IMG/VR virus record: IMGVR_UViG_3300032220_000368
Coordinates: 1 to 29,277 of that record
DNA: 29,277 nucleotides
Source of the DNA: a virus
Reading direction: 5' to 3' (one strand)
In this document: positions 12,068 to 24,230 of the stretch, one piece after another
How positions within the stretch are numbered: the stretch's first letter is position 1
How the letters are laid out: each line of letters opens with the position of its first letter
Notes under the pieces: generated by a model
What the model saw: only the letters and a program-made list of their open reading frames with translations
What the model was told of the DNA's origin: nothing
The model's database searches: none
Made by a program: the position numbers and the translations under genes

Positions 12068-12327
12068 TGGAAGAACAAAAACCACATACCGAACCCGAAG
12101 TTTCTGAAGAAGCGATTGAATGGGAAGAAGCGGAAACAACTACGCGTGGCGATTTAATTAGCTGCGCGTATTATGCTTATAGCACAGTTGAAGATATTGA
12201 TTTGACATTGCTTTCAAAAATAGAAGCAAACAAAATACGTCGTATTAGAAGACAATCATTAGACATTATTGCCGAAGTTATTGGCGAAATGCACGCCGAA
12301 ATATTTGACTTAGGCGAAGAAGAATAA
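12067..12327 (+). CDS. Hypothetical acidic protein
   Basis: This 86-residue protein starts on the previous stop (TAATG). The first 27 residues are acidic and probably disordered. Residues 28-82 are helical with a basic RRIRRQS patch and a C-terminal Glu-rich end (GEEE). I do not recognise it. It is the last gene of the lysis-to-exonuclease operon; a promoter with tandem repeats follows directly. Confidence 0.6.
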   Translation: MEEQKPHTEPEVSEEAIEWEEAETTTRGDLISCAYYAYSTVEDIDLTLLSKIEANKIRRIRRQSLDIIAEVIGEMHAEIFDLGEEE

Positions 12328-12356
12328 CCGTTTATCAGTTTATTTTGCCGTTTATC
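12328..12356 (+). repeat. Tandem CCGTTTATC repeats upstream of a promoter
   Basis: CCGTTTATC occurs at 12328-12336 and again at 12348-12356, with starts exactly 20 bases apart (about two helical turns). They begin 38 and 18 bases before the TTTG box of the next promoter. A related pair with the same 20-base spacing lies upstream of the promoter at 22829. Binding sites for a dimeric or cooperative regulator are the natural reading. Confidence 0.6.
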
Positions 12357-12365
12357 CATATATTT

Positions 12366-12398
12366 TTTGGATTGTATTGTGTATATTATGTATATTTG
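12366..12398 (+). promoter_or_regulatory. Bacteroidetes-type promoter for the replication operon
   Basis: TTTG at 12366-12369 is separated by 21 bases from TATATTTG at 12391-12398, matching the Bacteroidetes -33/-7 consensus (TTTG and TAnnTTTG). The first downstream start codon is at 12420. This promoter would drive the recombination and replication genes. Confidence 0.75.
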
Positions 12399-12419: not shown

Positions 12420-12632
12420 ATGACAATTACAAACGAAACAATTGGCGAATTGTATTTAAGAAACACAAACCGCGCCGCAGATTATGCAGGTGCTTTGGGG
12501 TTCAGTCGTGGAACTTTAAATTTAATTTTAAAGTATGTCAAAGAAAATGACATTGAACGTATTGAAAGCCTTGCGCACGAAGCATTAGAAGAAATTGAAA
12601 ACGTATTTATTAAACATCAAATAAATTTATAA
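12420..12632 (+). CDS. Small protein of unknown function, possibly HTH-like
   Basis: This 70-residue protein is the first gene after the promoter at 12366-12398. Residues 18-40 (AADYAGALGFSRGTLNLILKYV) have the spacing of a helix-turn-helix, with SRGTL as the start of a recognition helix, but the match is loose. The C-terminal half is an acidic helix. As first gene of the operon it could be an early regulator. I do not recognise a named family. Confidence 0.6.
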   Translation: MTITNETIGELYLRNTNRAADYAGALGFSRGTLNLILKYVKENDIERIESLAHEALEEIENVFIKHQINL

Positions 12633-12886
12633 TGAATCATTTACACGAATTAGACAAACTTCGTAACAATGTTAGTTACTGCGAATGGCTTTTTGATATT
12701 AGCACCGCATCAAATGCACGTAAAAGGTTGGAAATGGTAAAAAATGCACGCCAAGATTTAAAAGAATTTAAAGCAAAGTATTTCCCGCATTTATTAGTTC
12801 AGCCAAAAAGCAATTTTCCAAAAGAACCTTTTGTGCCAATGTCAACTTGGTCAGAAAAATTTGAAGAATACGGGGATATGTATTAA
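12632..12886 (+). CDS. Hypothetical protein
   Basis: This 84-residue protein starts on the previous stop codon (TAATG). The first 55 residues are helical and basic (SNARKRLEMVKNARQDLKEF); the rest is Pro- and Phe-rich (YFPHLLVQP, FPKEPFVPM) and probably extended. No family is recognised. Position directly before the ERF gene suggests a role in DNA handling or in early takeover. Confidence 0.6.
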   Translation: MNHLHELDKLRNNVSYCEWLFDISTASNARKRLEMVKNARQDLKEFKAKYFPHLLVQPKSNFPKEPFVPMSTWSEKFEEYGDMY

Positions 12887-12909
12887 ATTTATAAACCAAA
12901 AACAAACCT

Positions 12910-13530
12910 ATGAAATTAGTAAAAATTCAGGCGGAATTAAAAGCGCCCAAAGGACAATTAAACAAATTCGGAAATTACCGTTACCGCAGCGCCGAAGATA
13001 TTATTGAAGCGGTAAAACCAATACTTCACAAAAACGGTTGCGCGTTAATTATAACCGACGAAATTGTGCAGGTCGCTGACCGCGTATATGTAAAAGCGAC
13101 GGCGGCAATATTTGACCAAGACAATATTGACTTTCAATTTACTGCGCACGGTTGGGCGCGTGAAGAAGAAGTAAAAAAAGGAATGGACGCCGCACAAATA
13201 ACCGGGTCAGCTTCTTCGTATGCCCGCAAATATGCGCTTAACGGACTGTTTGCAATTGACGATACCAAAGACGCAGACGCAACAAACGAACACAAAGACG
13301 AAGTCGGGAATGACAAACGTTTATATTTGTTAACTTTGTTGGAATCCACGACATACGACGAACAGGCAAAAGAAAAATTGGCTATTCGTATTGAAGCATT
13401 AACAACAAACGAATCATACGACAAAGCTTTATTAAACCTGCAATCAAACCAAATACACGACAAAGACCGTATTGCAATGGGTATGAATTACAATCAAACA
13501 GACATTAAGAAAACAACAAAAACAAAATAA
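12910..13530 (+). CDS. erf: ERF-family single-strand annealing protein
   Basis: This 206-residue protein matches the ERF recombinase family. The start (LVKIQAELKAPKGQLNKFGN, then YRYRSAEDIIEAVKPIL) and the signature GSASSYARKYAL at 99-110, followed by GLFAIDDTKDAD, are characteristic. ERF proteins bind single-stranded DNA and anneal complementary strands, helping genome circularisation, repair and phage mosaicism. The C-terminus is helical, then a Lys/Thr-rich tail that may bind DNA. It lies near a small SSB-like protein and nucleases, as is usual for recombination modules. Confidence 0.85.
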   Translation: MKLVKIQAELKAPKGQLNKFGNYRYRSAEDIIEAVKPILHKNGCALIITDEIVQVADRVYVKATAAIFDQDNIDFQFTAHGWAREEEVKKGMDAAQITGSASSYARKYALNGLFAIDDTKDADATNEHKDEVGNDKRLYLLTLLESTTYDEQAKEKLAIRIEALTTNESYDKALLNLQSNQIHDKDRIAMGMNYNQTDIKKTTKTK

Positions 13531-13925
13531 TGCGCGAATATACCATTGAAGAATTAACGAGCAAAGCGGAACGAATGTTGGATTTTTTACAGAAGCCATT
13601 GCCTAAAAACGACACGCCTGATTATCACGATTCATTGATAAAACGTTTAGATACTTTAAATATTGCAATGACACAATCAGGGGAATACAGAACAGCCGCA
13701 GAATATAAAATTGAATGCGTAATTAACGGCGAAATTGGCGACAAAATCGGTGAAATAATGGACGGCAAACTTGCAACGTCAACTGTCAATATGTGGATAA
13801 AAAGCAAGGCGCGTGAATGGTCAAGATTGAAGAACGCATTTGATAGAATAAACGCTTCTTCAGTTCACCAAATAGACGCAATTCGTTCAATTCTTAGTTG
13901 GGAAAAAGCCAAAATAAACCTATAA
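13530..13925 (+). CDS. Recombination-module protein of unknown function
   Basis: This 131-residue soluble protein starts on the ERF stop codon (TAATG). It is mostly helical, with EYRTAAEYKIECVINGEIGD at 52-71 and a basic helix AREWSRLKNAFDRI. I do not recognise a catalytic motif. Proteins of this size follow annealing proteins in several Bacteroidetes phages, so a partner role with ERF is a reasonable guess. Confidence 0.65.
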   Translation: MREYTIEELTSKAERMLDFLQKPLPKNDTPDYHDSLIKRLDTLNIAMTQSGEYRTAAEYKIECVINGEIGDKIGEIMDGKLATSTVNMWIKSKAREWSRLKNAFDRINASSVHQIDAIRSILSWEKAKINL

Positions 13926-13928
13926 AAA

Positions 13929-14144
13929 ATGAATCAAGAAACCTATCAAGATTACGAAAATGGAATGCAAAATTTGCTTCCAATGGAACGTCAAATGTTA
14001 TTAGCAAAAGTTTACCACTATTGTTGGTATTCACCTGAAGCTTATAAACAATTAAGCGCATACCTTGCAAAATGGGAAAAGGAATGTGAATTTAAAGCAG
14101 TATTTTTTAATCAGGATTCAGAAGAATCCACAAACCAAATATAA
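13929..14144 (+). CDS. Hypothetical small protein
   Basis: This 71-residue helical protein begins MNQETYQDYENGMQNLLPME and contains YHYCWYSPEAYKQLSAYLAKW, rich in aromatic residues. It has no visible metal site or membrane segment. It sits one base before the SSB-like gene. No family is recognised. Confidence 0.6.
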   Translation: MNQETYQDYENGMQNLLPMERQMLLAKVYHYCWYSPEAYKQLSAYLAKWEKECEFKAVFFNQDSEESTNQI

Positions 14145-14145
14145 A

Positions 14146-14379
14146 ATGTCAGAAGTAAAAAAAGAATCAATCGGTGCTTGGAAACGTACAACACCAAAGG
14201 GCGAAGTAATTAATTTCACAATAAACGGTCAACGTTATAATATGTGGGTAAATGGTTATAAAGACAAACCTGCGCAACCTGACTTCAAAATATATGAAGA
14301 CAATTACGTTGCACCAACAGATACAAAACCACAGTCTAAACCGGATTTTAAACCATTGTCAGAAGACGATTTATTTTAA
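14146..14379 (+). CDS. Small beta-rich protein with an SSB-like acidic tip
   Basis: This 77-residue protein starts MSEVKKESIGAWKRTTPKGE; longer in-frame sequence upstream lies inside the previous gene and has no comparable start. Residues 9-40 form beta strands (GAWKRTTPKG, VINFTINGQRYNMWVNGYK), like the small DUF736-type/OB-like phage proteins. A flexible Pro- and Lys-rich linker follows, and the protein ends SEDDLF. SSB proteins end in a similar acidic tip with a terminal Phe that recruits partner enzymes. In this recombination module, a minimal single-strand binding protein is plausible but unproven. Confidence 0.6.
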   Translation: MSEVKKESIGAWKRTTPKGEVINFTINGQRYNMWVNGYKDKPAQPDFKIYEDNYVAPTDTKPQSKPDFKPLSEDDLF

Positions 14380-14381
14380 TT

Positions 14382-14813
14382 ATGAATGAAGAACTTAAAA
14401 ACGAATTGGTGCAATGTTATAAAAACAGTTTATCAAGCTTAAAAATGATTCATAAAACGTTAGTAAGTGCGAAAGTTATAACAGAAGATTTTGCAGTTAG
14501 TAAAGGCGCAACAGACATTAAACCGCACAGATTGATTGAATTAGTACAGGATGTATTTGAAGCAGACGTTTTGGCTAAGAACAGGAAACAGGGTACAATC
14601 TTTGCGCGTAAAGCAAGTGCATATATTTTAAGGAAATATACACAATTGTCTTTGAACGAAATTGCACCTTTAATTGGGGTCGGTGACCATACAACAGTTA
14701 TTTACAATATTCAAACTGCTTCAGATTTAATTGACACAGAAGATTGGTACAAAGAAAAAATTGACCAAATTGAAGAAGATATTGAAAGTTTTAATAACTT
14801 TGTAAGGAAATAA
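14382..14813 (+). CDS. DnaA domain-IV-like DNA-binding protein
   Basis: This 143-residue protein carries the DNA-binding signature of bacterial DnaA without the ATPase. Residues 64-110 show AKNRKQGTIFARKASAYILR, then LSLNEIAPLIGV and DHTTVIYNI. In DnaA the DHTTV loop and the arginine-containing helix contact DnaA boxes. The N-terminal 60 residues are helical and unlike DnaA domains I-III. It lies immediately upstream of a Rep-like initiator, so it probably binds the phage origin, or host DnaA boxes, to recruit or divert replication. It could also act as a transcription regulator. Confidence 0.75.
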   Translation: MNEELKNELVQCYKNSLSSLKMIHKTLVSAKVITEDFAVSKGATDIKPHRLIELVQDVFEADVLAKNRKQGTIFARKASAYILRKYTQLSLNEIAPLIGVGDHTTVIYNIQTASDLIDTEDWYKEKIDQIEEDIESFNNFVRK

Positions 14814-14818
14814 GTAAA

Positions 14819-14837
14819 TGCGTTATGCAACAACGCA
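14819..14837 (+). other. Small hairpin upstream of the Rep gene
   Basis: TGCGTT (14819-14824) pairs with AACGCA (14832-14837) around a seven-base loop. It lies between the DnaA-like gene and the terminator-like hairpin at 14852-14906. The two could be parts of one regulated leader. Confidence 0.45.
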
Positions 14838-14851
14838 GTATCAAATATATT

Positions 14852-14906
14852 GGGTCAAGGGTTTTACAGGTAGTTGCATTGCCTGTTTGCCTGCGACCCT
14901 TTTTTT
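14852..14906 (+). terminator. Terminator-like hairpin ending at the Rep start codon
   Basis: GGGTC (14852-14856) pairs with GACCC (14895-14899), with an inner ACAGG/CCTGT stem and then seven T (14900-14906). The Rep ATG is at 14910, three bases after the T run. The outer and inner stems are only five pairs each and are separated by unpaired bases, so strength is uncertain. It may work as an attenuator that limits Rep synthesis. Confidence 0.6.
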
Positions 14907-14909
14907 ATT

Positions 14910-15599
14910 ATGGCAATATTTAGAAAAATACACGTGAGCTTTTGGAAGGACGAATTCATTGAAAGTCTGACACCTGAACAGAAGTTTTTTTATTTGTATT
15001 TAATGACAAATGACCGGACAACGCAATGCGGCATTTATGAAATTACAATAAAACAAATGTGTTATGATACCGGTTACAATGAAGACACAATAAAAAAGCT
15101 AATTGAATTCTTTACAAAATGCGGCAAAATTCAGTATTCTTTGGCAACAAAAGAAATTGCAATGAAGAATTGGCTGAAATATAATGATTCAACTTCACCA
15201 AAGGTAAAATCCTGCATAAACAAAGAACTTATGAAGGTAAAAGATAGAGTATTGATACAGTATGCATACAGTATGGATACACATACGCAAGAAGAAGAAG
15301 AACAAGAAGAAGAAGAAGAACAAGAAAAAGAACAAATTGATAATAAAACTTTGTTTTTAGATAAAATTGAACCTTTTAAGGGTTTATTGGGGGAATCATA
15401 CCAAGAATTTATTGATTATTGGTGCGAATCTTCAAAAAGTGGTAAATTGCGTTACCAAGCAGAAAAATTTTTTGACATAAAACGCCGGGTTAATACTTGG
15501 CTTCAAAACAAATTAAAGTATGGAAATACAAAAAATACTGACCCAACCGCTTCAAGTCGCAAAAGAATGCAAGACTTACAAAATTGGGTTAATAGCTAA
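14910..15599 (+). CDS. Replication initiator, Rep/DnaD-like
   Basis: This 229-residue protein starts MAIFRKIHVSFWKDEFIESL; an upstream start at 14874 (GCATTGCC region) would lie within the terminator hairpin and is rejected. Residues 1-95 form a winged-helix domain (PEQKFFYLYLMTNDRT, YEITIKQMCYDTGYNEDTI, CGKIQYS), as in phage and plasmid initiators. Residues 120-145 are an extreme Glu/Gln-rich linker, and residues 150-229 are helical (YQEFIDYWCESSKSGKLRYQ) like the C-terminal part of DnaD-type proteins. The predicted role is origin binding and helicase loading. The next gene overlaps its end by 80 bases. Confidence 0.7.
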   Translation: MAIFRKIHVSFWKDEFIESLTPEQKFFYLYLMTNDRTTQCGIYEITIKQMCYDTGYNEDTIKKLIEFFTKCGKIQYSLATKEIAMKNWLKYNDSTSPKVKSCINKELMKVKDRVLIQYAYSMDTHTQEEEEQEEEEEQEKEQIDNKTLFLDKIEPFKGLLGESYQEFIDYWCESSKSGKLRYQAEKFFDIKRRVNTWLQNKLKYGNTKNTDPTASSRKRMQDLQNWVNS

Positions 15600-16263
15600 C
15601 GAAGACCTGCCAATTGTTGAAGCTTTTAAAGGCGACAAATTAAACTTGGCTTCACCTGTAATTATAAGGGAAAATTTAGCCTATATTTTTACATTAATAG
15701 GTTTAACCCGTTTACCGGACAAAATGGAATTGGAAGTTATTGAAGACTATATTCGTACAACATATCCGTATTTTACGGTGCAGGAAATGCGAATAGCTTT
15801 TAAAATGGCAGTTCAAGGTCGTTTTGAGTGCAATACAGACCACTACGAAAAGTTTTCACCAAAGTATATATCCCAAATAATGAACGCCTACAAAGCCAAA
15901 GCAAACGAAATACGCAAGAATTTACCGCCGCCACCTGAAACACCTGTGAAACAATTAACAGACGAAGAAATTGTTGAATTTACAAAAAACGATTGGCTGA
16001 CAGGTAAGCGTCAAGACTTTAACCGGGTTTTTAATGCTGACAAAGTATTTTCAATCCTTTTAAGACAGGGAAAATTAAAATTTACACCCGAACAGATATT
16101 GGAAACAATTAAAGTTGTACGTGAAGACAATTTATACAGACTTAACCGGTTGAATCCATTGGAAGCCAAAGAGTTTACCAAAAGGGTTAAAAACGAAGAC
16201 TTTATTGAATCACAATGTAAAAAATTAGCATTAGTTAAATATTTTGAAAATTTATCAAATTAA
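15520..16263 (+). CDS. Replication-module protein of unknown function
   Basis: This 247-residue protein begins inside the Rep gene; the next in-frame Met is some 75 codons later, so the 80-base overlap is likely real. Residues 60-120 contain LEVIEDYIRTTYPYFTVQEM, FKMAVQGRFECNTDHYEKFS and PKYISQIMNAYKAKANE, a pattern I have seen in Bacteroidetes phages next to initiators. A Pro-rich hinge PPPPETPVK follows, and then a second helical domain. No Walker motif is present, so it is not a helicase. A helicase loader or primosome adaptor is a possible role. Confidence 0.65.
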   Translation: MEIQKILTQPLQVAKECKTYKIGLIANEDLPIVEAFKGDKLNLASPVIIRENLAYIFTLIGLTRLPDKMELEVIEDYIRTTYPYFTVQEMRIAFKMAVQGRFECNTDHYEKFSPKYISQIMNAYKAKANEIRKNLPPPPETPVKQLTDEEIVEFTKNDWLTGKRQDFNRVFNADKVFSILLRQGKLKFTPEQILETIKVVREDNLYRLNRLNPLEAKEFTKRVKNEDFIESQCKKLALVKYFENLSN

Positions 16264-16444
16264 ATATACGCACTACGGAACTTTGAAATATTGTTATACA
16301 GACAATTTTATTGACTTTTATGCCAATTATCCTGAAGTCAAAACAAAAGAAAATAGGTTATTATTTACAAAACAATTTTATGAAAAAGTGCAACAGGTGC
16401 AAAAAGAACTTGGATTGGGACAAATTCAGGAAGGACAGACGTAA
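16244..16444 (+). CDS. Possible small protein with TTG start
   Basis: A 66-codon frame opens at TTG 16244, 12 bases after an in-frame stop (16232-16234), with no ATG before the conserved-looking part. The protein (IYQIKYTHYGTLKYCYTDNF, DFYANYPEVKTKENRLLFT) has natural composition and codon use, and it fills the space between two genes. It overlaps the end of the previous gene by 20 bases and the next by 65. The TTG start is unusual, and it may be a degraded gene. Confidence 0.4.
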   Translation: MKIYQIKYTHYGTLKYCYTDNFIDFYANYPEVKTKENRLLFTKQFYEKVQQVQKELGLGQIQEGQT

Positions 16445-16541
16445 CCTTGACGGGTATTATGGTTATTGCAGAATATGCAGTAAAGAAAAAACCGAAATAT
16501 ATAAAAACAAAATTAAAGAAGGTACAATAAAAGCATTTTAA
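16380..16541 (+). CDS. Small Cys4 zinc-finger protein
   Basis: This 53-residue protein begins MKKCNRCKKNLDWDKFRKDR and has two CxxC knuckles, C4/C7 and C30/C33, separated by a DKFRKDRRNLDGYYGYC segment. This matches the short zinc-binding proteins, or N-terminal fragments of endonuclease VII-like proteins, common in phages. The rest is basic. It probably binds nucleic acid. It ends directly at the start of the VRR-type nuclease gene. The ATG at 16380 is preferred over a TTG at 16311, which would add 23 residues unlike the family. Confidence 0.7.
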   Translation: MKKCNRCKKNLDWDKFRKDRRNLDGYYGYCRICSKEKTEIYKNKIKEGTIKAF

Positions 16542-16856
16542 ATGGATATATCCGCAAACGACCTTACAAAATGGGCTAAGACAAACCTTGAATTAATTGG
16601 TTGGCGTTTAAATAGGGTTAACAATATACCATTTGCAAAACGAAAAGGTACAGTTCAAAAAGGTTGGGCGGACTTACAAGGTTATACTGAAAAAGGTGTT
16701 TATGTAGCGGTTGAAGTTAAAAAGATAGGTGACAAATTAAGCAAAGAACAAAGGGAACGATTAAAAGATATTTTTGAATGTGGGGGGATTGTCTATATTT
16801 GTACTGAAGTAGAAAACAAACCTGCTTTAATTGAATGGTCAAAAATAAAATTTTAG
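16542..16856 (+). CDS. VRR-NUC-like nuclease (PD-(D/E)XK fold)
   Basis: This 104-residue protein has a compact restriction-endonuclease-like core: GWADLQGY with D44, then YVAVEVKK with E58 and K60, and a helix with LSKEQRERLKDI. This D-ExK layout and the small size match VRR-NUC and Holliday-junction-resolvase-type nucleases of phages. The likely job is resolving branched DNA before packaging. It begins on the base after the zinc-finger gene and overlaps the sigma-like gene by 22 bases. Confidence 0.8.
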   Translation: MDISANDLTKWAKTNLELIGWRLNRVNNIPFAKRKGTVQKGWADLQGYTEKGVYVAVEVKKIGDKLSKEQRERLKDIFECGGIVYICTEVENKPALIEWSKIKF

Positions 16857-17335
16857 CTGAATTTTGGGACTTAAAAGAAGTCAACGAAGCATTTGGTAAA
16901 ATGCAACCTGAAGAATTGCGGTATGACCTGAAGGCAGAAGTTTTTTTAGTTCTTTGTGAAATGGACGAACAGAAGTTAATTGGACTGTATGAACGAAACG
17001 AATTAAGATTTTATATTGTGCGAACAATGTTGAATATGATTAAAAGTGACAGAAGTACATTTTATAAAAATTACCGCAACCATATTGAATTTGTTGCGTC
17101 TGATTTGAACAGGGAAATTAAACGTATTAATGACGAACCAACTGATTTGATTGATAAATTGGAAAAGAATTTGGAAGGTTTACATTGGTACAATAAGGAA
17201 ATATTAAAACTATATGCAATTGATTTTAAAAAGAATGCAAAAGAACTAAGCAGAAAAACAGGCATTCCATATATGTCAATTGTCAGAACTATAAATAAAA
17301 CCAAAAAACAAATGAAACAAAACATACGCAAATGA
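16835..17335 (+). CDS. Sigma-factor-like regulator
   Basis: This 166-residue protein has two parts like a small sigma-70/ECF factor. Residues 27-70 (LRYDLKAEVFLVLCEMDEQK, RNELRFYIVRTMLNMI) resemble sigma region 2, and KSDRSTFYKNYR follows. Residues 118-160 (WYNKEILKLYAIDF, AKELSRKTGIPYMSIVRTIN) look like the region 4 helix-turn-helix. This family is common in Bacteroidetes phages. It may direct host RNA polymerase to later phage promoters. Position at the end of the replication genes suits a middle-to-late switch. Regulation of terminase or tail genes is inferred. Confidence 0.65.
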   Translation: MVKNKILAEFWDLKEVNEAFGKMQPEELRYDLKAEVFLVLCEMDEQKLIGLYERNELRFYIVRTMLNMIKSDRSTFYKNYRNHIEFVASDLNREIKRINDEPTDLIDKLEKNLEGLHWYNKEILKLYAIDFKKNAKELSRKTGIPYMSIVRTINKTKKQMKQNIRK

Positions 17336-17571
17336 TTTTATCAATTTTAACCGCAGTCTGTGCATCACTATTTATTAACGATATACATAACCTTCCCTTT
17401 AAATGGAAAGCGAATTTCAAGCCATTTAATTGCGGAAGTTGCTTGGCTGCGTGGCTTGCACCAATACACTATTTCGCACCTGAATTGATACAAAATATTA
17501 CTTCGTGCATATTTATTGCCGGATTTTTAGCACCTGTTGTTTCAAAATTAATATGGAATTTATGGAAATAA
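17332..17571 (+). CDS. Small membrane protein with CGSC motif
   Basis: This 79-residue protein overlaps the preceding stop (ATGA). Hydrophobic segments lie at about 2-14, 38-49 and 55-77. Between the first two is FNCGSCLAAW with C34 and C37, a CxxC motif placed at a membrane edge. Small proteins with PFNCGxCLA are familiar from Bacteroidetes phages, function unknown. The CxxC could be redox-active or bind metal. Confidence 0.65.
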   Translation: MILSILTAVCASLFINDIHNLPFKWKANFKPFNCGSCLAAWLAPIHYFAPELIQNITSCIFIAGFLAPVVSKLIWNLWK

Positions 17572-17888
17572 AACAAGAACACCGCGACTTTTTAGACGCT
17601 AATATTAACAATTACGAAAGCGCGCAAAATGGATATATCCGAAATTTGGATTTACCCGAACTACAAATGTACGAACACATTTACCGTTTATATTTAGACC
17701 CTAATTTTTTATTGTCTGTTTGGTGCGGCGCTTGTAAGTTTGATATGATTATGCGTTTATACAATTGGTATGTGACGCAACCTAAACAAGTTGAACCTAA
17801 ACCAATACGTGAACAATTTGAAACAGTTGTAAATGCAATTGAAAAAGAAATAAAGAAACGCGGACGTAAACCCAAAGCAAATGGCTAA
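17562..17888 (+). CDS. Conserved-looking protein of unknown function
   Basis: I place the start at ATG 17562 (MEIKQEHRDFLDANI); ATG 17553 would add MEF, and both overlap the previous gene (10 or 19 bases). The 108-residue protein has LQMYEHIYRLYLDPNF and VWCGACKFDMIMRLYNWY with a CxxC-like CGAC, then a basic tail ending KKRGRKPKANG. Proteins with WCgaC-x-D-M-LY patterns are widespread in Bacteroidetes phages, but their job is unknown to me. The basic RGRKPK tail suggests nucleic acid contact. Confidence 0.65.
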   Translation: MEIKQEHRDFLDANINNYESAQNGYIRNLDLPELQMYEHIYRLYLDPNFLLSVWCGACKFDMIMRLYNWYVTQPKQVEPKPIREQFETVVNAIEKEIKKRGRKPKANG

Positions 17889-18363
17889 TTTTATACACCC
17901 AACCGCCATAATTGGCGACAACGTTATTTTAGGCGACAACAACTACATTGGCGCTTTTTGTATTATTGGCGACCCCGCAGAACACAAAAAATATTGGGGT
18001 CAAGAAAAAGGCAAAGTAATTATTGGCAACAATAACATTGTTACCGGATTGGTTACAATTGACGCCGGAACTGAAGTGCCAACCATTATTGAAGACGGTT
18101 GTTTTATTATGAAACACGCGCATATCGGTCACGATTGCCGAATAATGAATAATGTAACAATAAGCTGCGGCGCAAAGATTGGGGGTCATTCAATTATTGG
18201 TGAAGGTTCAAACATTGGACTGAACGCAGTATTACATCAATTCAGTATAATAAAAAAAGGTTGTATGATTGGCGCAAGTGCTTTTTTTAAAGGTGAATCA
18301 GAACCCGAAATGAAATATGCCGGTGTGCCTTCGCGCAAACTTGGTTCAAATATAAGAAAATGA
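17881..18363 (+). CDS. LpxA-like acyltransferase (left-handed beta-helix)
   Basis: This 160-residue protein consists of hexapeptide repeats (IGDNVILGDNNYIGAFCIIG and others). It lines up with LpxA, the UDP-GlcNAc O-acyltransferase of lipid A synthesis: HIGHDC gives H81 and H84, GGH gives H103, and VLHQF gives H119. The spacings (3, 19 and 16) are the same as H122, H125, H144 and H160 in E. coli LpxA as I recall them, so the catalytic His is present. LpxA is about 262 residues; this one is missing about two N-terminal coils and the C-terminal helical domain, ending YAGVPSRKLGSNIRK. Substrate is unknown: a UDP-sugar acyl transfer altering host surface glycans is most likely. It overlaps neighbours on both sides. 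Confidence 0.85.
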   Translation: MANFIHPTAIIGDNVILGDNNYIGAFCIIGDPAEHKKYWGQEKGKVIIGNNNIVTGLVTIDAGTEVPTIIEDGCFIMKHAHIGHDCRIMNNVTISCGAKIGGHSIIGEGSNIGLNAVLHQFSIIKKGCMIGASAFFKGESEPEMKYAGVPSRKLGSNIRK

Positions 18364-19049
18364 ATATAGCCGTAATTTTACTAAACCTAAACAGAAACCA
18401 TTTGGCAAAACGCGTTGTTGACCAAAATTTTAAAAATGCGGGACACAATGCGGATTGTTTTTTGGTTGACAATGGCAGCGACGAAGTGCCGTATGACATT
18501 TACAATTGGACAAATTGCAATGTTTCAACAAAGAAACGGGGTATTGCCGCAGGTGTTAATGCCGGCTTAAATATGACACGCGCATACGACGGGGTATGTA
18601 TATTAGCAAATGACATTCTTTTACCTGATAATTGGTTGTCAAATTGGGTTATGTTTGCTAAACGTGTGTCAAAAACAGGCATTATTGGAATACATTGTGT
18701 TGAAGATTTGCCGCCATTGGTTGACGGAATACATAAAGTACATACACCATTTGGTGACAATTACCTTACAAGGGAACTAATTGATACAATTGGCGGTTAC
18801 AATACAGAATACGACCCTTATGGAATGCAAGACCGCGATTATGCGGAACGCGCAACGATTGCCGGATTTACAAATTATTACATACCTGATTTACGTTCTG
18901 AACATATTGGACACGACGTCGGAAACAATACAGAATATCGTCAAATGAAGGACGAAAGTTTACAACGCGCACAGGCAGTTTGGGAAAAATACCAACCAAT
19001 TTATCACGAACAAAAAAACCTATATGCGCATTTTAGCAATAACAAGTAA
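18360..19049 (+). CDS. Family-2-type glycosyltransferase
   Basis: This 229-residue GT-A enzyme starts MNIAVILLNLNRNHLAKRVV. Conserved parts are FLVDNGS (34-40, nucleotide-sugar binding), GIAAGVNAGL (61-70), an NDI motif at 84-86 in place of DxD, and YGMQDRDYAERA (154-165), which supplies the acidic catalytic residue of inverting family-2 enzymes. It has no membrane segments. It overlaps the acyltransferase (ATGA) and the next transferase (26 bases). The cassette probably modifies host lipopolysaccharide or another surface polymer during infection; glycosylation of virion proteins or DNA is possible. Confidence 0.8.
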   Translation: MNIAVILLNLNRNHLAKRVVDQNFKNAGHNADCFLVDNGSDEVPYDIYNWTNCNVSTKKRGIAAGVNAGLNMTRAYDGVCILANDILLPDNWLSNWVMFAKRVSKTGIIGIHCVEDLPPLVDGIHKVHTPFGDNYLTRELIDTIGGYNTEYDPYGMQDRDYAERATIAGFTNYYIPDLRSEHIGHDVGNNTEYRQMKDESLQRAQAVWEKYQPIYHEQKNLYAHFSNNK

Positions 19050-20031
19050 CAAAAGCGGTGTTGGTTATCATAGAATCATAATGCCAATAGTCAATATGCA
19101 AAAAGATTATTGTTTAATGACTGATACAATAAGCGAAGAAACATTTGAAGGAAATTACGATATTGTCGTTATGAATAGAATGTTGGCTAATATAACACCT
19201 GAACAAATGGACGCTTGGCGTACAAAGTACGGTTTTAAATTAGTTGTTGACAATGACGATTATTGGTATTTAGACCCTTCGCACATTTTACACGAACGAT
19301 ATGTTTTAAATAATATTAGTCAGCAAATTATTGGTTGGCTACGAATTGCCGACCTTTGCACAGTTACGCACGAACGATTGGCTGAAGAAGTAAAGCCATA
19401 TAATTCAAATATTGAAATTGTGCCAAACGCCTTACCATTCGGTGAAGAACAGTTTAAGGATTTTAAAAAGGATTCAGACCTTGTTCGTTTATTTTGGTCA
19501 GGTTCGGGAACGCACGGCAAAGACTTGGAAATATTACGTAACCCAATGAAGCGTATTAATTTTCCTGTACGTACAGTTATTGCAGGATTCAATGAAGGCG
19601 AAAAGCCAATTTGGGACGGAATGATTTGCGCATTTACAAACGGATTGAAACTAAACCCAACTATTTACAATTATAATGCAGTTACCGAATATATGGCGGC
19701 TTATTGCGATTCAGATATTTCATTAATACCTTTAATTGATTCAAAGTTTAATTCAATGAAGTCTAATTTGAAGGTACTTGAAACCGCATCAAAGAAAAAC
19801 CCCGCCATTGTCAGTAACGTACACCCGTACAAAGGATTTTATCCCGCCTGTCACGTCAATAGCCAAAAGGATTGGTACTATTGGATAAAACTATTAACCA
19901 AAGACCCTGACGCCCGTAAAAGCTACGGAAACGCTTTATACGAGTATTGCAATAAGAACTTCAATTTACACGAAGTAAATAAACACCGATTCGCTATTTA
20001 TAAAAAACTAATAGGCAATGCCGGTAATTAA
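19024..20031 (+). CDS. GT-B-type glycosyltransferase (GT4-like)
   Basis: This 335-residue protein starts MRILAITSNKSGVGYHRIIM, a nucleotide-binding first strand with a G-GYHR loop. The second Rossmann half has VPNALPF, LFWSGSGTHGKDLEIL and SMKSNLKVLETASKKNPAIV, where the E of LKVLE is the conserved donor-binding acid of retaining GT4-type enzymes. The VVDNDDYWYLDP segment is typical of glycosyltransferases carried by phages and polysaccharide loci. It shares 26 bases with the GT2 gene and 14 with the HAD gene. The acceptor is unknown. Confidence 0.8.
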   Translation: MRILAITSNKSGVGYHRIIMPIVNMQKDYCLMTDTISEETFEGNYDIVVMNRMLANITPEQMDAWRTKYGFKLVVDNDDYWYLDPSHILHERYVLNNISQQIIGWLRIADLCTVTHERLAEEVKPYNSNIEIVPNALPFGEEQFKDFKKDSDLVRLFWSGSGTHGKDLEILRNPMKRINFPVRTVIAGFNEGEKPIWDGMICAFTNGLKLNPTIYNYNAVTEYMAAYCDSDISLIPLIDSKFNSMKSNLKVLETASKKNPAIVSNVHPYKGFYPACHVNSQKDWYYWIKLLTKDPDARKSYGNALYEYCNKNFNLHEVNKHRFAIYKKLIGNAGN

Positions 20032-20764
20032 ATGTTCAAACGGGAAATACAGAATTGGGTCAGGCGCTTGCATATATGACACCGAAGAAAAGGCAACAAA
20101 AGTTTGGCAGGCAATATTAGCTTCAGGCGCTTACGCTGCGGATTTAAACAAAGTTAGTTTTGATTTTGACGATACTTTAACGACTGAAAAAGGTTTTAAC
20201 AAAGCAAAAGAACTAATTGCAGAAGGTAAAACAGTTTACATAGTTACACGAAGACAACAAAGCGCAAGTGAAGAAGTTTACAAAGTTGCTGACGAATTAG
20301 GCATTCCAAAAAGCAGGGTTAAATTCACAAATGGTTCTTATAAATGGGAAACCATTAAACACTACGGAATTGGTACACACTACGACAACAATTCACGTGA
20401 AATAGAATTAATTAATTCTAAAACGACTGCAAAGGGTGTAAAATTCGCGTTTCAGGATTCATATACAGATTATCCCGAAGCAGCGACAAACAACGCTAAA
20501 AAGGCTTTAAATTACGCAGAAACGAATGGTTGGGGTGATTGTGGCACACCTGTTGGAAAAGCAAGGGCAAACCAATTAGCAAACAAAGAACCAATTTCAC
20601 GCGATACAATTGCAAGAATGGCGTCTTTTAAAAGACACCAACAATATAAAAACGTACCTTACGAACAAGGTTGCGGCGGTTTAATGTGGGACGCTTGGGG
20701 TGGCGACGAAGGTGTTGAATGGGCGATTCGTAAGCTTAAACAAATAGATGAAGAAACACACTAA
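20018..20764 (+). CDS. HAD phosphatase domain inside a phage head-type fusion protein
   Basis: This 248-residue protein has three parts. Residues 1-35 (KCSNGKYRIGSGACIY, then EEKATKVWQAIL) form a small Cys-containing module often seen at the ends of phage head proteins. Residues 45-145 are a HAD hydrolase: DFDDT (D49, D51), VTRR with T77, K102 or K109, and HYDNN (D123). Residues 152-245 (YPEAATNNAKKALNYAE, CGTPVGKARANQLANKEPIS, MWDAWGGDEGVEWA) match a domain I know from prohead or minor head proteins. The gene precedes HNH, TerS and TerL genes. Phosphatase activity acting on nucleic acid ends or nucleotides during packaging is possible. Domain identity is from pattern memory. Confidence 0.7.
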   Translation: MPVIKCSNGKYRIGSGACIYDTEEKATKVWQAILASGAYAADLNKVSFDFDDTLTTEKGFNKAKELIAEGKTVYIVTRRQQSASEEVYKVADELGIPKSRVKFTNGSYKWETIKHYGIGTHYDNNSREIELINSKTTAKGVKFAFQDSYTDYPEAATNNAKKALNYAETNGWGDCGTPVGKARANQLANKEPISRDTIARMASFKRHQQYKNVPYEQGCGGLMWDAWGGDEGVEWAIRKLKQIDEETH

Positions 20765-21005
20765 AATTTATCTTGAATACTTTGGCTACGGTTTAGAAGA
20801 CTTTATTCCCTGCGAAGTATGCGGACAAAGAGCAGTTGACATTCACCACATAGACGCACGGGGAATGGGGGGAACGAAAAAAGAAGATACGATTGACAAT
20901 TTACAAGCTTTATGCCGGTACTGTCACGTTGTTATGGGCGACACAAAGACACATTATCAATATTTAAAGGACATTCACAATAAAGTATTAAATGGCAAAA
21001 GTTAA
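20748..21005 (+). CDS. HNH endonuclease
   Basis: This 85-residue protein overlaps the HAD gene by 17 bases. CEVC (C22, C25) and CRYC (C56, C59) form the structural zinc site, and DIHHID (H33, H34) with N51 in TIDNLQAL is the HNH catalytic motif. HNH nucleases next to terminases are known to help cut DNA for packaging in many phages, for example HK97-like phages. Position one gene before TerS supports that role. Homing activity is less likely because it overlaps neighbours at both ends. Confidence 0.88.
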   Translation: MKKHTKIYLEYFGYGLEDFIPCEVCGQRAVDIHHIDARGMGGTKKEDTIDNLQALCRYCHVVMGDTKTHYQYLKDIHNKVLNGKS

Positions 21006-21114
21006 ACAAGACAGTCGCAAAGTATCATTCGGCAAAAGAAAGCGTGGACACGCTAAAAAGAGTTTCAACAAACATTCGCCTAAACCAAAGGCATACAAAG
21101 GACAGGGCAGGTAA
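20992..21114 (+). CDS. Very basic 40-residue protein
   Basis: The protein begins MAKVKQDSRKVSFGKRKRGH and ends with KAYKGQGR, with about 14 Lys or Arg in 40 residues. Short proteins of this form (S-RKV-FGKR-GKAKK ... Y-GQGR) recur beside packaging genes of Bacteroidetes phages, to my recollection. It overlaps the HNH gene by 14 bases and ends 22 bases before TerS. The extreme charge suggests binding to DNA or RNA. Confidence 0.7.
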   Translation: MAKVKQDSRKVSFGKRKRGHAKKSFNKHSPKPKAYKGQGR

Positions 21115-21136
21115 ACTGCGACAAAACTGCGAAATT

Positions 21137-21514
21137 ATGGCAAATTCAAAAGCATTAGAAAATTTAAAACCATTCGCAAAAGGCGAAGATTCAAGACGTA
21201 ACTTAGAAGGGCGACCGCGTAAGTATATCAGCTTATTAAAAGAACAAGGGTATAAATTAGCTGAAATAAACGATTCAATTCAGGCGCTTATGTCAATGAC
21301 CCCAAAAGAATTGGAAGCGGTTACAAATAACCCGCACGCAACTGTGCTTGAAATGACTGTTGCAAAGGCAATGACTAAGTCAATGAATAATGGCAGTCTG
21401 TATTCAATGGACACTTTATTGTCCCGTGTTTACGGTAAACCAAAAGAACAGGTTGACGTTCAACAGGATTCACGAATTGAAGTCGTATTTGTTGACGGCA
21501 AAACCATTTTGTAA
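21137..21514 (+). CDS. Small terminase subunit (TerS)
   Basis: This 125-residue protein starts MANSKALENLKPFAKGEDSR, followed by NLEGRPRKY, the DUF5681-like opening of small terminases in these phages. The middle is helical (KLAEINDSIQALMSM), which fits the oligomerisation core, and the end (VEVVFVDG-type beta strand, IEVVFVDGKTIL) fits the part that contacts TerL. TerS recognises the packaging site and controls the large subunit. Upstream in-frame codons to 21044 start with GTG and lie within the tiny basic gene's region; I prefer the ATG at 21137. Confidence 0.75.
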   Translation: MANSKALENLKPFAKGEDSRRNLEGRPRKYISLLKEQGYKLAEINDSIQALMSMTPKELEAVTNNPHATVLEMTVAKAMTKSMNNGSLYSMDTLLSRVYGKPKEQVDVQQDSRIEVVFVDGKTIL

Positions 21515-21539
21515 ATAGATTACAAAGTGCATATCTTTA
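21508..21539 (+). promoter_or_regulatory. Possible promoter for the large terminase gene
   Basis: TTTG (21508-21511) is followed after 20 bases by TATCTTTA (21532-21539), one base off TAnnTTTG. The TerL ATG is only four bases further on, so an mRNA from here would be nearly leaderless. The first box is the last codon region of TerS. This is a fair match but could be chance. Confidence 0.45.
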
Positions 21540-21543
21540 CATT

Positions 21544-22695
21544 ATGCGCATAGAACTTCCAACACCACATATTAACCAAAGGCAAATATTGGATTCCAAT
21601 AAACGTTTTATTGTCGTTATGTGCGGACGTCGTTTTGGTAAGTCTGAATTGTCGCAAATACTTGGAATCACAGAAGCATTAAAAGGCGGGTCAGTTGCAT
21701 ACGTCACACCGACATACGGATTGGCACAGGTATTCTTTGAACGCCTGACAAAGACATTGCCATTTAAAAACAATATATCAAAGCTTAAAATCTATTGTCC
21801 CAACGAAGGTTCAATTGAATTCTTTACAGGTGAAAGGTTGGATAACTTGCGCGGTCGCAAATTCCATTTGGTTATTATTGACGAAGCTGCTTTTATTTCA
21901 GACCTTGAAGACGGTTGGTCAAATAGCATACGCCCAACGCTGACCGATTACGAAGGGCGTGCGGTTTTCCTTTCAACACCACGTGGCAAAAACTTCTTTT
22001 ATTCCCTGTTTATGAAGCAGGGTGAAAATGATTGGCAAAGTTTTAAATTTAGTACGTACGACAACCCGCATATAAACCCCCGCGAAATTGACGACGCCCG
22101 AATTCAATTACCCGAAGTCGTATTTAATCAGGAATATTTAGCAGACCCCGCAGAAAATAGCGCCAACCCGTTTGGGAACGCATTTATCAAACGCTGCATT
22201 AAACCTGTTTCAGCGCAGACAATTGTCTGTTATGGTATTGACCTTGCAAAGTCTGTTGACTTTACTGTTATTATTGGCTTAGATAATGCCGGAAACGTGG
22301 CTTATTTTGACCGCTTCCAATTGGATTGGCATAACACTAAGGAAACCATAAAAAGATTGCCGCCTGCGCCTATAATCGTGGATTCAACGGGAGTTGGTGA
22401 CCCGATACTTGAAGACTTAATGCGCGACGGGATAAATATTGAAGGTTTGAAATTTACAAGTCAGTCAAAGCAGCAATTAATGGAAGGTTTAGCTTCAGCC
22501 ATTCAACAGGGACGCATTGGATTTCCTGAAGGGGTTATTGTGGACGAATTAGACGTGTTTGAATATCAGTTCACCGCAAATGGTGTAAGGTATTCAGCGC
22601 CGTCCGGATTCCACGACGACTGCGTTATGGCATTGGCTTTGGCTTGGCAGAATCATAACATTAAGCGTGGTTCAGGGCGTTACGCCTTTGCTTAA
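21544..22695 (+). CDS. terL: Large terminase subunit (TerL)
   Basis: This 383-residue motor packages DNA into the prohead. The ATPase half has Walker A GRRFGKS at 28-34, Walker B LVIIDEAA (D113, E114) and the coupling motif STP at 144-146. The RNase H-like nuclease half has D233 (YGIDLAKS), D280 (IVDSTGVGD) and D358/D359 (FHDDC). The size is slightly short for TerL but both domains are complete. It is far from the portal gene, unlike the usual TerL-portal pair, unless the genome is permuted differently. The gene ends just before a structured non-coding stretch. Confidence 0.95.
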   Translation: MRIELPTPHINQRQILDSNKRFIVVMCGRRFGKSELSQILGITEALKGGSVAYVTPTYGLAQVFFERLTKTLPFKNNISKLKIYCPNEGSIEFFTGERLDNLRGRKFHLVIIDEAAFISDLEDGWSNSIRPTLTDYEGRAVFLSTPRGKNFFYSLFMKQGENDWQSFKFSTYDNPHINPREIDDARIQLPEVVFNQEYLADPAENSANPFGNAFIKRCIKPVSAQTIVCYGIDLAKSVDFTVIIGLDNAGNVAYFDRFQLDWHNTKETIKRLPPAPIIVDSTGVGDPILEDLMRDGINIEGLKFTSQSKQQLMEGLASAIQQGRIGFPEGVIVDELDVFEYQFTANGVRYSAPSGFHDDCVMALALAWQNHNIKRGSGRYAFA

Positions 22696-22767
22696 TCAAT
22701 CACAAAAGTTGCTTTATTAGGCAACTTTGAGGCGAAAACGATTCATAATCGGCTCATATATGATTGA
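22696..22767 (+). other. Predicted three-way-junction RNA or DNA structure
   Basis: TCAATCA (22696-22702) can pair with TGATTGA (22761-22767). Inside lie AAAGTTGC/GCAACTTT (22705-22712 with 22721-22728) and CGATT/AATCG (22739-22743 with 22747-22751). Together they make a possible three-way junction beginning right after the TerL stop. No T run follows, so it is not a standard terminator. It may protect the 3' end of the mRNA. Confidence 0.45.
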
Positions 22768-22771
22768 TAAA

Positions 22772-22800
22772 CCGCTTATCCTTATTATTTACCGTTCATC
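22772..22800 (+). repeat. Tandem CCGYTYATC repeats upstream of a promoter
   Basis: CCGCTTATC at 22772-22780 and CCGTTCATC at 22792-22800 have starts 20 bases apart, as in the pair at 12328-12356. They lie 57 and 37 bases before the TTTG box of the promoter at 22829. The pair therefore occupies the same two-turn grid but one step farther out than the first pair. Confidence 0.55.
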
Positions 22801-22828: not shown

Positions 22829-22861
22829 TTTGGAATGTGTATATAAGTTAATATATCTTTG
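22829..22861 (+). promoter_or_regulatory. Bacteroidetes-type promoter for the small-gene operon
   Basis: TTTG (22829-22832), 21 bases and TATCTTTG (22854-22861) match the consensus exactly and have the same spacing as the promoter at 12366-12398. Both continue TTTGGA-A/T-TGT after the upstream box. The first downstream ATG is 22890. Confidence 0.75.
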
Positions 22862-22889: not shown

Positions 22890-23096
22890 ATGAAAAACGA
22901 AACAAAACTTAATTACGCAACTTTACATTTTGCAATTGACGATTTAGAGTTAATTAATCAAGCACTTTGCAGATTATTAATTTATACTAAAAATGAAGAT
23001 AAAAAATCAGAATTGAGCAGAATTATTTGGCAATTATCACAGGCAATTAACCCTGAATTATACGAAAGTTCAGATAATGCATTATATAATTCATAA
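22890..23096 (+). CDS. Hypothetical small protein, first gene of early operon
   Basis: This 68-residue protein begins MKNETKLNYATLHFAIDDLE and is helical, with LCRLLIYTKNEDKKSELSRI. It lies directly behind the promoter at 22829-22861. I do not recognise a family. Small proteins first in a phage early operon often interfere with host proteins or regulate phage genes. Confidence 0.65.
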   Translation: MKNETKLNYATLHFAIDDLELINQALCRLLIYTKNEDKKSELSRIIWQLSQAINPELYESSDNALYNS

Positions 23097-23109
23097 ACTA
23101 ATTACTATC

Positions 23110-23138
23110 CCCCGCAGGGGTGCGACTGTCCAACGCAC
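23110..23138 (+). other. Two adjacent GC-rich hairpins
   Basis: CCCC-GCA-GGGG (23110-23120) is followed directly by GTGCG/CGCAC (23120-23124 with 23134-23138), then a weak TTTT. In an AT-rich genome such a pair stands out. It could be a weak terminator or a leader element for the next gene at 23156. Confidence 0.45.
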
Positions 23139-23155
23139 ATTTTAAACTTACAACT

Positions 23156-23308
23156 ATGCCAAACAAATTAAAAACACCACAGGAAAAACATTTGGAATTA
23201 TTAGCTGCCCGTCAAAAGAAATACGCCCAAGAATCATTGGGTATGGGTTGGTTCTTTGCTATTGTTGCCGGCGCTTTATTGTTAACCGCTTTAATTGAAA
23301 ACATATAA
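23156..23308 (+). CDS. Small single-pass membrane protein
   Basis: This 50-residue protein begins MPNKLKTPQEKHLELLAARQ. A charged helix (1-29) is followed by one membrane segment (about 30-48, WFFAIVAGALLLTALI). The GTG-started extension upstream runs through the hairpins and is not favoured. Function is unknown. Single-pass proteins of this form can act on the host membrane early in infection. Confidence 0.6.
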   Translation: MPNKLKTPQEKHLELLAARQKKYAQESLGMGWFFAIVAGALLLTALIENI

Positions 23309-23309
23309 T

Positions 23310-23480
23310 ATGCCATATTCAACTTGCTGCGGCGCACATACAAACTTTACGGAAATGGACATTTGTCCGGATTGCTTAGAGCATTGCGACTTTGAAGACG
23401 ACGACGACGAAGAAGAAGTTGCACAGGACGAACAGACAGAAAACCAAATTGACCAAATTAAAATTGACCAAAATGCCTAA
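23310..23480 (+). CDS. Small zinc-binding protein with acidic tail
   Basis: This 56-residue protein begins MPYSTCCGAHTNFTEMDICP. C6/C7, C19/C22 and H25/C26 (STCCGA, ICPDCLEHC) make a likely zinc ribbon. CCGA-ICPDC-EHC proteins are common in Bacteroidetes phages. The second half is very acidic (a run of D and E at 28-36), which may mimic DNA or bind basic partners. It starts one base after the previous stop. Confidence 0.7.
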   Translation: MPYSTCCGAHTNFTEMDICPDCLEHCDFEDDDDEEEVAQDEQTENQIDQIKIDQNA

Positions 23481-23634
23481 TTACTACGAACTAAAACAGA
23501 CGACTTTAATGGAATTGGAAATTGAAGGTTTAATTGAAAAGATTAAACAACTTGAAATAAGTTTAGGAATTAAAGAATTGGAAGTTAAACAATTAAAAAT
23601 GCGTATATTAGCATTGGCAGATATTAACCAATAA
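23473..23634 (+). CDS. Small coiled-coil protein
   Basis: This 53-residue protein begins MPNYYELKQTTLMELEIEGL and is almost wholly a heptad helix (LIEKIKQLEISLGIKEL, VKQLKMRILAL). A leucine-zipper-type dimer is likely. It overlaps the previous gene by eight bases. A longer upstream extension begins at a non-ATG codon and is not used. Function is unknown. Confidence 0.6.
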   Translation: MPNYYELKQTTLMELEIEGLIEKIKQLEISLGIKELEVKQLKMRILALADINQ

Positions 23635-23640
23635 TACTTT

Positions 23641-24000
23641 ATGATAACAAACTTTGAATACCTTACAAGGGAAATGACCGACGAAGAAAAGAAGTTAGTG
23701 CCAATTCTGATAAAAGGATTTAGCACCAAGACAAAAGACAACCCAATTAAAGCGCCTGAAATTGTACAGTCAATCAATGGCAAACGTGAAACATTGGGTT
23801 TAAAGTCAAACTTTTCTGAAGTTAGGTTGCGAAAAATAGTTAACTTTATAAGGGCAGAAGGCATATTGCCTTTAATAGCGACGTCAAACGGTTACTATTG
23901 CAGCAATGACAAAGAAGAAATAAAGAACCAAATTGAAAGCTTAACGCAGCGCGCTGAAGCGATTATGTCAAGCGCTAACGGGTTAAATAAATTTTTATGA
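23641..24000 (+). CDS. Winged-helix-like protein, conserved in Bacteroidetes phages
   Basis: This 119-residue protein has a familiar pattern: SEVRLRKIVNFIRAEGILPL, IATSNGYYCSNDKEEIKNQI and ESLTQRAEAIMSSANGLNKF. The first part looks like a recognition helix and the GYYCSNDKEE part like a wing. I have seen this arrangement in many Bacteroidetes phages and prophages, where its function is not settled; a DNA-binding regulator is most likely. It is the last gene before another promoter-like element at 24017. Confidence 0.65.
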   Translation: MITNFEYLTREMTDEEKKLVPILIKGFSTKTKDNPIKAPEIVQSINGKRETLGLKSNFSEVRLRKIVNFIRAEGILPLIATSNGYYCSNDKEEIKNQIESLTQRAEAIMSSANGLNKFL

Positions 24001-24016
24001 TAATAGTTTTATCAAT

Positions 24017-24034
24017 AATATGTTGGGAATGTGT
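24017..24034 (+). repeat. 18-base element repeated from the promoter at 22823
   Basis: AATATGTTGGGAATGTGT here matches 17 of 18 bases of AATATGTTTGGAATGTGT at 22823-22840, which contains the upstream promoter box. The downstream -7 box is poor here (TATATTCT at 24041 or later). It is probably a weak or regulated promoter for the gene at 24072. Confidence 0.5.
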
Positions 24035-24071
24035 TAAACTTATATTCTATAAACTTATAAATAAATAATCT

Positions 24072-24230
24072 ATGAAGGAATTAATTGAACTTCGCGAATG
24101 GGTTGAACAACAATGCAAAACAGGTCAGCCGTTTACCTGCGCAGACGTTTTAAATAAGATTGACGAAATGTGCGAAACTGACGATGATATTGATAATCTT
24201 TTATTAACTTCGTGCTATGAAATGGAATAA
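24072..24230 (+). CDS. Small acidic protein before the tail chaperone
   Basis: This 52-residue protein begins MKELIELREWVEQQCKTGQP and has four Cys residues spread out (C15, C23, C34, C48), with an acidic ETDDDIDN near residue 38. It is helical overall. It overlaps the tail chaperone gene by 14 bases in another frame. No family is recognised. It starts a short distance after the promoter-like element at 24017. Confidence 0.6.
   Translation: MKELIELREWVEQQCKTGQPFTCADVLNKIDEMCETDDDIDNLLLTSCYEME

Follow-up and report, generated by a model that had tools for sequence, protein, structure and literature searches.

A conserved paired operator, probably of LytTR type, at two promoters of a Bacteroidota-type phage

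Organisation of the locus

The window—that is, the whole stretch of DNA analysed—is an entire IMG/VR virus record of 29,277 bp (35% GC) and represents a phage of Bacteroidota type; comparison with the closest phage records gave no DNA match, no capsid match and distant terminases only, and Rfam returned no match. Reading along the + strand, which carries all of the features described below, a block of genes at 12420..22695 would form a single early/replication operon. It opens with a 70-aa ORF (12420-12632), followed by an ERF recombinase (12910-13530), a DnaA domain-IV-like protein (14382-14813), a resolvase-like protein (16542-16856), a sigma-like protein (16835-17335) and the terminase (21544-22695), with glycosyltransferases also encoded within the block (12420-22695). 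The DnaA-like protein is a stand-alone domain IV that bears the DHTTVIY signature and is without an ATPase domain. The sigma-like protein has regions 2 and 4 and goes unrecognised by Pfam / PHROGs; its AF2 model has a pLDDT of 72, and its top Foldseek matches are sigma factors, at weak E-values.

Directly 3' of the terminase we see, by eye, a hairpin (AAAGTTGC-TTTATTAG-GCAACTTT; 22705..22728), with a comparable hairpin in close relatives; being terminator-like, it would mark the operon boundary ahead of the second operator described below. Beyond this lies a run of small genes (22890..24230; first ORF, 22890-23096), which probably constitutes a further operon; the genes behind this post-terminase promoter, the first gene included, vary among relatives.

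Both gene blocks are preceded by a pattern match to a promoter: TTTG-N21-TATATTTG, of the Bacteroidota sigma-A type, at 12366..12398 (promoter 1), and TTTG-N21-TATCTTTG at 22829..22861 (promoter 2), such that the 21-base spacing reported for both in the preliminary description of this DNA holds. In Flavobacterium, TAnnTTTG serves as the -7 box for sigma-A (PMC9723704). By itself the TTTG-N21-TAnnTTTG pattern is weak evidence for a promoter, with 8 matches in the window against 4.1 expected; promoters 1 and 2 are, in addition, conserved in relatives jointly with the paired boxes that lie upstream of them.

The paired boxes

Operator 1 consists of two copies of CCGTTTATC, the distal at 12328..12336 and the proximal, 20 bp after it, at 12348..12356; read in the frame used for LytTR sites, the corresponding 9-mers (ACCGTTTAT for the distal box) occupy 12327-12335 and 12347-12355. 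Operator 2 pairs CCGCTTATC (distal; 22772..22780) with CCGTTCATC (proximal; 22792..22800), the latter followed by a conserved ACA. All four boxes are kept in relatives. When both strands are scanned, CCGYTYATC is found just four times in the window, always on the + strand, against a shuffle expectation of 0.53 (four copies being reached in 0/100 shuffles), and the copies fall into two same-strand pairs with starts exactly 20 bp apart; the motif scan thus confirms the pairs first noted at 12328/12348 and 22772/22792. The distal box of operator 2 also sits within a perfect 15-bp palindrome, GATAAACCGTTTATC (22766-22780), in many relatives; in others the left arm is missing.

Consensus DnaA boxes are 9-mers of the TTATCCACA type, and we take the TTATCC motif to be similar to half of such a box. 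We rejected a cluster of DnaA boxes as the identity of these elements: the conserved core is CCGYTYATC, and conservation does not extend to the 3' half, CCACA.

Conservation among relatives

Relatives were collected as 80 loci by scanning with the ERF protein, 80 by scanning with the terminase protein and at least 120 by the pair pattern itself. The preliminary description had suggested seeking CCGYTYATC pairs with 20-base spacing near promoters of related phages; such pairs are present in considerably more than a hundred contigs of related phages, with a spacing that is almost invariant. Among the matches listed, 254 pairs have boxes up to 60 bp apart and no more than one mismatch over both boxes; of these, 225 are spaced at exactly 20 bp, minor classes being seen at 12, 40 and 50 bp. 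A reversed control pattern yielded zero pairs. Scanning IMG/VR as a whole for the strict pair TACCGTTCATC...TACCGTTCATC gave 64 loci with 20-bp spacing, 4 with 21 bp and 0 with 19 bp. From 151 distinct operators among the matches listed, the consensus reads TTTACCGYTYATC-(A/C)TT..TATTTACCGTTCATCACAAT.

Relatives have two conserved pair positions, ERF-upstream and post-terminase, which are those of the two window sites, and the orientation of the pair relative to the promoter is constant. Presence or absence of the pair is all-or-none, in that it is either near-perfect or missing: 92 of 104 distinct post-terminase regions carry it with 0-2 mismatches, the other 12 being at background, as do 50/72 ERF-upstream regions, where the other 22 are at background. 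Shuffled controls rarely came to five mismatches or fewer, and never to two or fewer. Relatives with the promoters and without the pairs do therefore exist, though only in minority subclades (the 12/104 and 22/72 above). This sharp presence or absence points to the pair being a discrete functional element.

The same data bear on the possibility that the repeats arise by chance, or coincidentally within coding sequence. Some matches to the pattern in IMG/VR do look coding, and nine with the spacer CTCTCATCAAT, or near variants of it, were excluded on that ground, as were those of record G164, which belong to a 23-bp tandem array. The intergenic position of the pairs, their invariant spacing and above all their all-or-none conservation refute such an origin, to which we attach a negligible likelihood.

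Two further arrangements were seen. One 76-kb virus record (51% GC in the part read) has three consecutive boxes at 20-bp spacing (L350; G010:C1:21417-21465), and four viral contigs (L391-L394) carry a pair at 21-bp spacing; these four are unrelated-looking in sequence, have no clear tie to the main group and contain no LytTR gene in the part of the contigs covered.

Box-to-promoter geometry

Measured from the TTTG element, the boxes begin at 38 and 18 bases (promoter 1) and at 57 and 37 bases (promoter 2), exactly as originally described. In the LytTR frame, the end of the proximal 9-mer lies 10 bp from the -33 box at promoter 1 and 29 bp from it at promoter 2, i.e. about two turns farther out. 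For operators with a recognisable -7 box, to which this analysis was restricted (TATGTTTG being counted as a -33 box, not a -7), the proximal box stands only 41-43, 49-51, 59-63 or 71 bp from the -7 box (133 promoters among the matches listed). Once relatives are included, the 19-20 base grid proposed in the preliminary description gives way to a step of ~10 bp, or approximately one helical turn. A test for helical phase gave p ~0.01 over 8 sequence clusters, a small number of independent clusters, such that the phasing of the proximal box against the -7 box is suggestive rather than decisive. Steps of about one turn favour activation from the same face of the DNA, and fit a protein that needs to face RNA polymerase.

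As direct repeats two turns apart, adjoining replication genes and separated by an AT-rich spacer, the pairs could alternatively be read as replication iterons, or as some other structural DNA element, rather than as operators for transcription. We consider this highly improbable: there are only two copies per site, the pairs face a promoter at distances that follow helical steps, and each genome has them at two separate promoters, one of which precedes small genes without replication functions.

Resemblance to LytTR sites

The LytTR regulator AlgR has the consensus CCGTTCGTC, and its rhlI-ABS site is CCGTTCATC (PMC4064291); both sequences are present in phage operators. The repeat of the BrsR operon includes ACCGCTTAT (PMC6193735), and the 9-mer of the phage boxes matches these known sites. 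Taken alone this match would be weak evidence for a LytTR site, because sites of the family, whose spacers are 11-13 bp, share no single consensus (PMC4847170). Architecture can be compared as well: LytTR repeats are spaced mostly by 12 bp, but also by 11 or 13, with a strong bias to end 10 bp before the -35 element (PMC6193735). Both window sites have an 11-bp spacer between 9-mers, within the LytTR range, although their 20-bp start-to-start distance is a minority spacing for the family, where most are 21; and, as for LytTR operators, the boxes are upstream of a -35-type element, at the 10 and 29 bp given above.

Pairs on bacterial chromosomes

We assembled 22 chromosomal loci, 13 of them genome-contig loci with ACCGTTYATC-N10-ACCGTTCATC and nine from two genome scans. 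A LytTR gene lies within 2.6 kb of the pair in 10/22, against ~3% under a generous null (binomial tail ~1e-10 under the 3% null, computed for 10/21); in the remaining 12/22 there is none nearby, some of the contigs being short. At three loci from quite different bacteria (L285, L290 and L291) the pair heads an operon of hydrolase, histidine kinase and LytTR genes, where the LytTR gene was identified by profile and the other names were read by eye from sequence. At three others (L280, L329 and L333) the pair falls 8-21 bp after a LytTR gene. In the first of these, a Saprospiraceae MAG, stand-alone LytTR proteins without a receiver domain (3971-4342 and 4613-4966) flank the pair.

On the chromosomes of Bacteroidota, exact pairs are uncommon: they were found in 3/395 genomes, and in 9/299 of one order against 3 control matches, such that no host whose regulon matches could be named. 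No relatives of the terminase were found in the 395 Bacteroidota genomes, in a search run without a positive control.

Source of the regulator

The preliminary description left the choice between a phage and a host regulator open; with a LytTR-type site and no phage LytTR gene found, the choice narrows in favour of the host. Pfam LytTR has no match in the window, in 16 motif-bearing or related virus records or in 50 further virus records, and a local LytTR profile has none in 319 viral loci. These are profile searches, which could overlook a domain that has diverged strongly, and many of the virus records are fragments; a host LytTR regulator is nonetheless the simplest source.

Many small phage proteins lack annotation; given this, and the LytTR character of the operator, the pairs might instead be bound by an unrecognised LytTR-fold protein of the phage's own. 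With filters off, the best LytTR hit in the window has an E-value of 0.09, which is background level, and we regard such a hidden fold, likewise unseen in the 319 viral loci, as improbable.

A better alternative, if still an unlikely one, is that the pairs are operators for some other phage-encoded activator or repressor, e.g. the sigma-like protein (16835-17335), the DnaA-like protein (14382-14813) or the product of the 70-aa ORF (12420-12632). The first has sigma factors as its best fold-search matches, and relatives of it are present in distant motif-bearing records (G001, G002 and G008), proteins of such records being mostly 21-44% identical to those of the window; for the second, there is the similarity of TTATCC to half of a DnaA box in a phage that carries a DnaA domain-IV protein. 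The E-value of 1e-42 obtained with the sigma-like HMM for G001 and G008 is, however, probably inflated, as those sequences were probably in the training set; a single-sequence match to G008 gives 28% identity and 1e-9. Records G003-G007 carry the motif (G004 extending to 35 kb) and have no significant match to either protein, and the sigma-like protein was rejected as the common factor, being undetected in these five divergent records. The DnaA-like family was detected in none of the distant motif-bearing records, and relatives of 12420/13530 were not found outside the group; indeed, no DNA-binding protein common to all of the distant motif-bearing records was detected. Phage-encoded candidates would also leave the chromosomal pairs beside LytTR genes unexplained.

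We therefore favour, and consider probable, a reading in which the pair is a LytTR-type operator that activates a sigma-A promoter, with the regulator most likely that of the host. Each operator would comprise two 9-bp boxes, (A)CCGYTYAT, as a direct repeat of 20 bp start to start with an 11-bp spacer; two LytTR DNA-binding domains would occupy one pair, and the bound regulator, most likely a host LytTR protein, would activate the Bacteroidota-type sigma-A promoter from one face of the DNA, thereby tying the early/replication and post-terminase small-gene operons to the signalling state of the host. From sequence we infer LytTR binding, activation over repression, the host origin of the protein and the signal. 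The earlier proposal of a regulator acting on one DNA face to coordinate the replication and small-gene operons gains support in this way from the 20-bp spacing, orientation, helical steps and conservation. More tentatively, a large group of Bacteroidota phages may have captured a host LytTR operator and fixed it as a control element at both the early and the small-gene promoters, with a host LytTR signal gating development and subclades gaining or losing the unit.

Relation to known systems

The best-known case of phages using two-component regulators of the host is that of the cyanophage Pho boxes. These are read by host PhoB, with binding demonstrated by EMSA (PMC10976474, which cites Zeng and Chisholm 2012), and provide the closest analogue, in that phage promoters carry sites for a host response regulator and host signalling sets phage expression. 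The regulator family and the hosts differ here, LytTR binding is predicted rather than seen by EMSA, and the conserved pairs occupy two fixed promoters, including that of the early/replication operon.

LytTR operators (AlgR, AgrA, BrsR/HdrR, YpdB) are likewise 9-bp direct repeats with an 11-13 bp spacer upstream of promoters; with those of AlgR and BrsR the phage sites share the same 9-mer, and at promoter 1 they end 10 bp before the -33 box. Unlike them, they are found on phage genomes, before Bacteroidota-type sigma-A promoters and in genomes where no LytTR gene was found, and they keep the 11-bp spacing almost without exception. Autoregulated LytTR systems, with repeats upstream of a LytTR-containing operon (PMC6193735), are matched by the chromosomal loci L285, L290 and L291, but not by the phage operons, in which no LytTR gene was detected and hence no autoregulation is expected. 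The literature searched gave no account of LytTR sites in phages, which does not prove their absence.

The conserved paired operator of LytTR type is real; LytTR binding and control by the host would extend the cyanophage precedent to a different and very common regulator family, whose operator is conserved over diverse uncultured phages at an early/replication promoter, and host signalling could then decide when infection proceeds. Close relatives that cleanly have or lack the pair provide a natural experiment. The operator sequence is a handle for finding both host and regulator.

A small ORF at 23997-24068

A degenerate copy of the box, AGTTTTATC, had been proposed at 24005-24013, along with a related element at 24017. 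Both fall inside a small ORF at 23997-24068 (MIIVLSIICWECVKLIFYKLINK), and we reject the copy: the site is coding, since relatives either keep the peptide despite altered DNA (e.g. MKIILIIIFWELAKATFYKLVNK in L136, translated by eye) or lose the region as a block (L083 and L088). The ORF itself is conserved, encodes a membrane-like peptide of 23 aa and overlaps the stop of the preceding gene.
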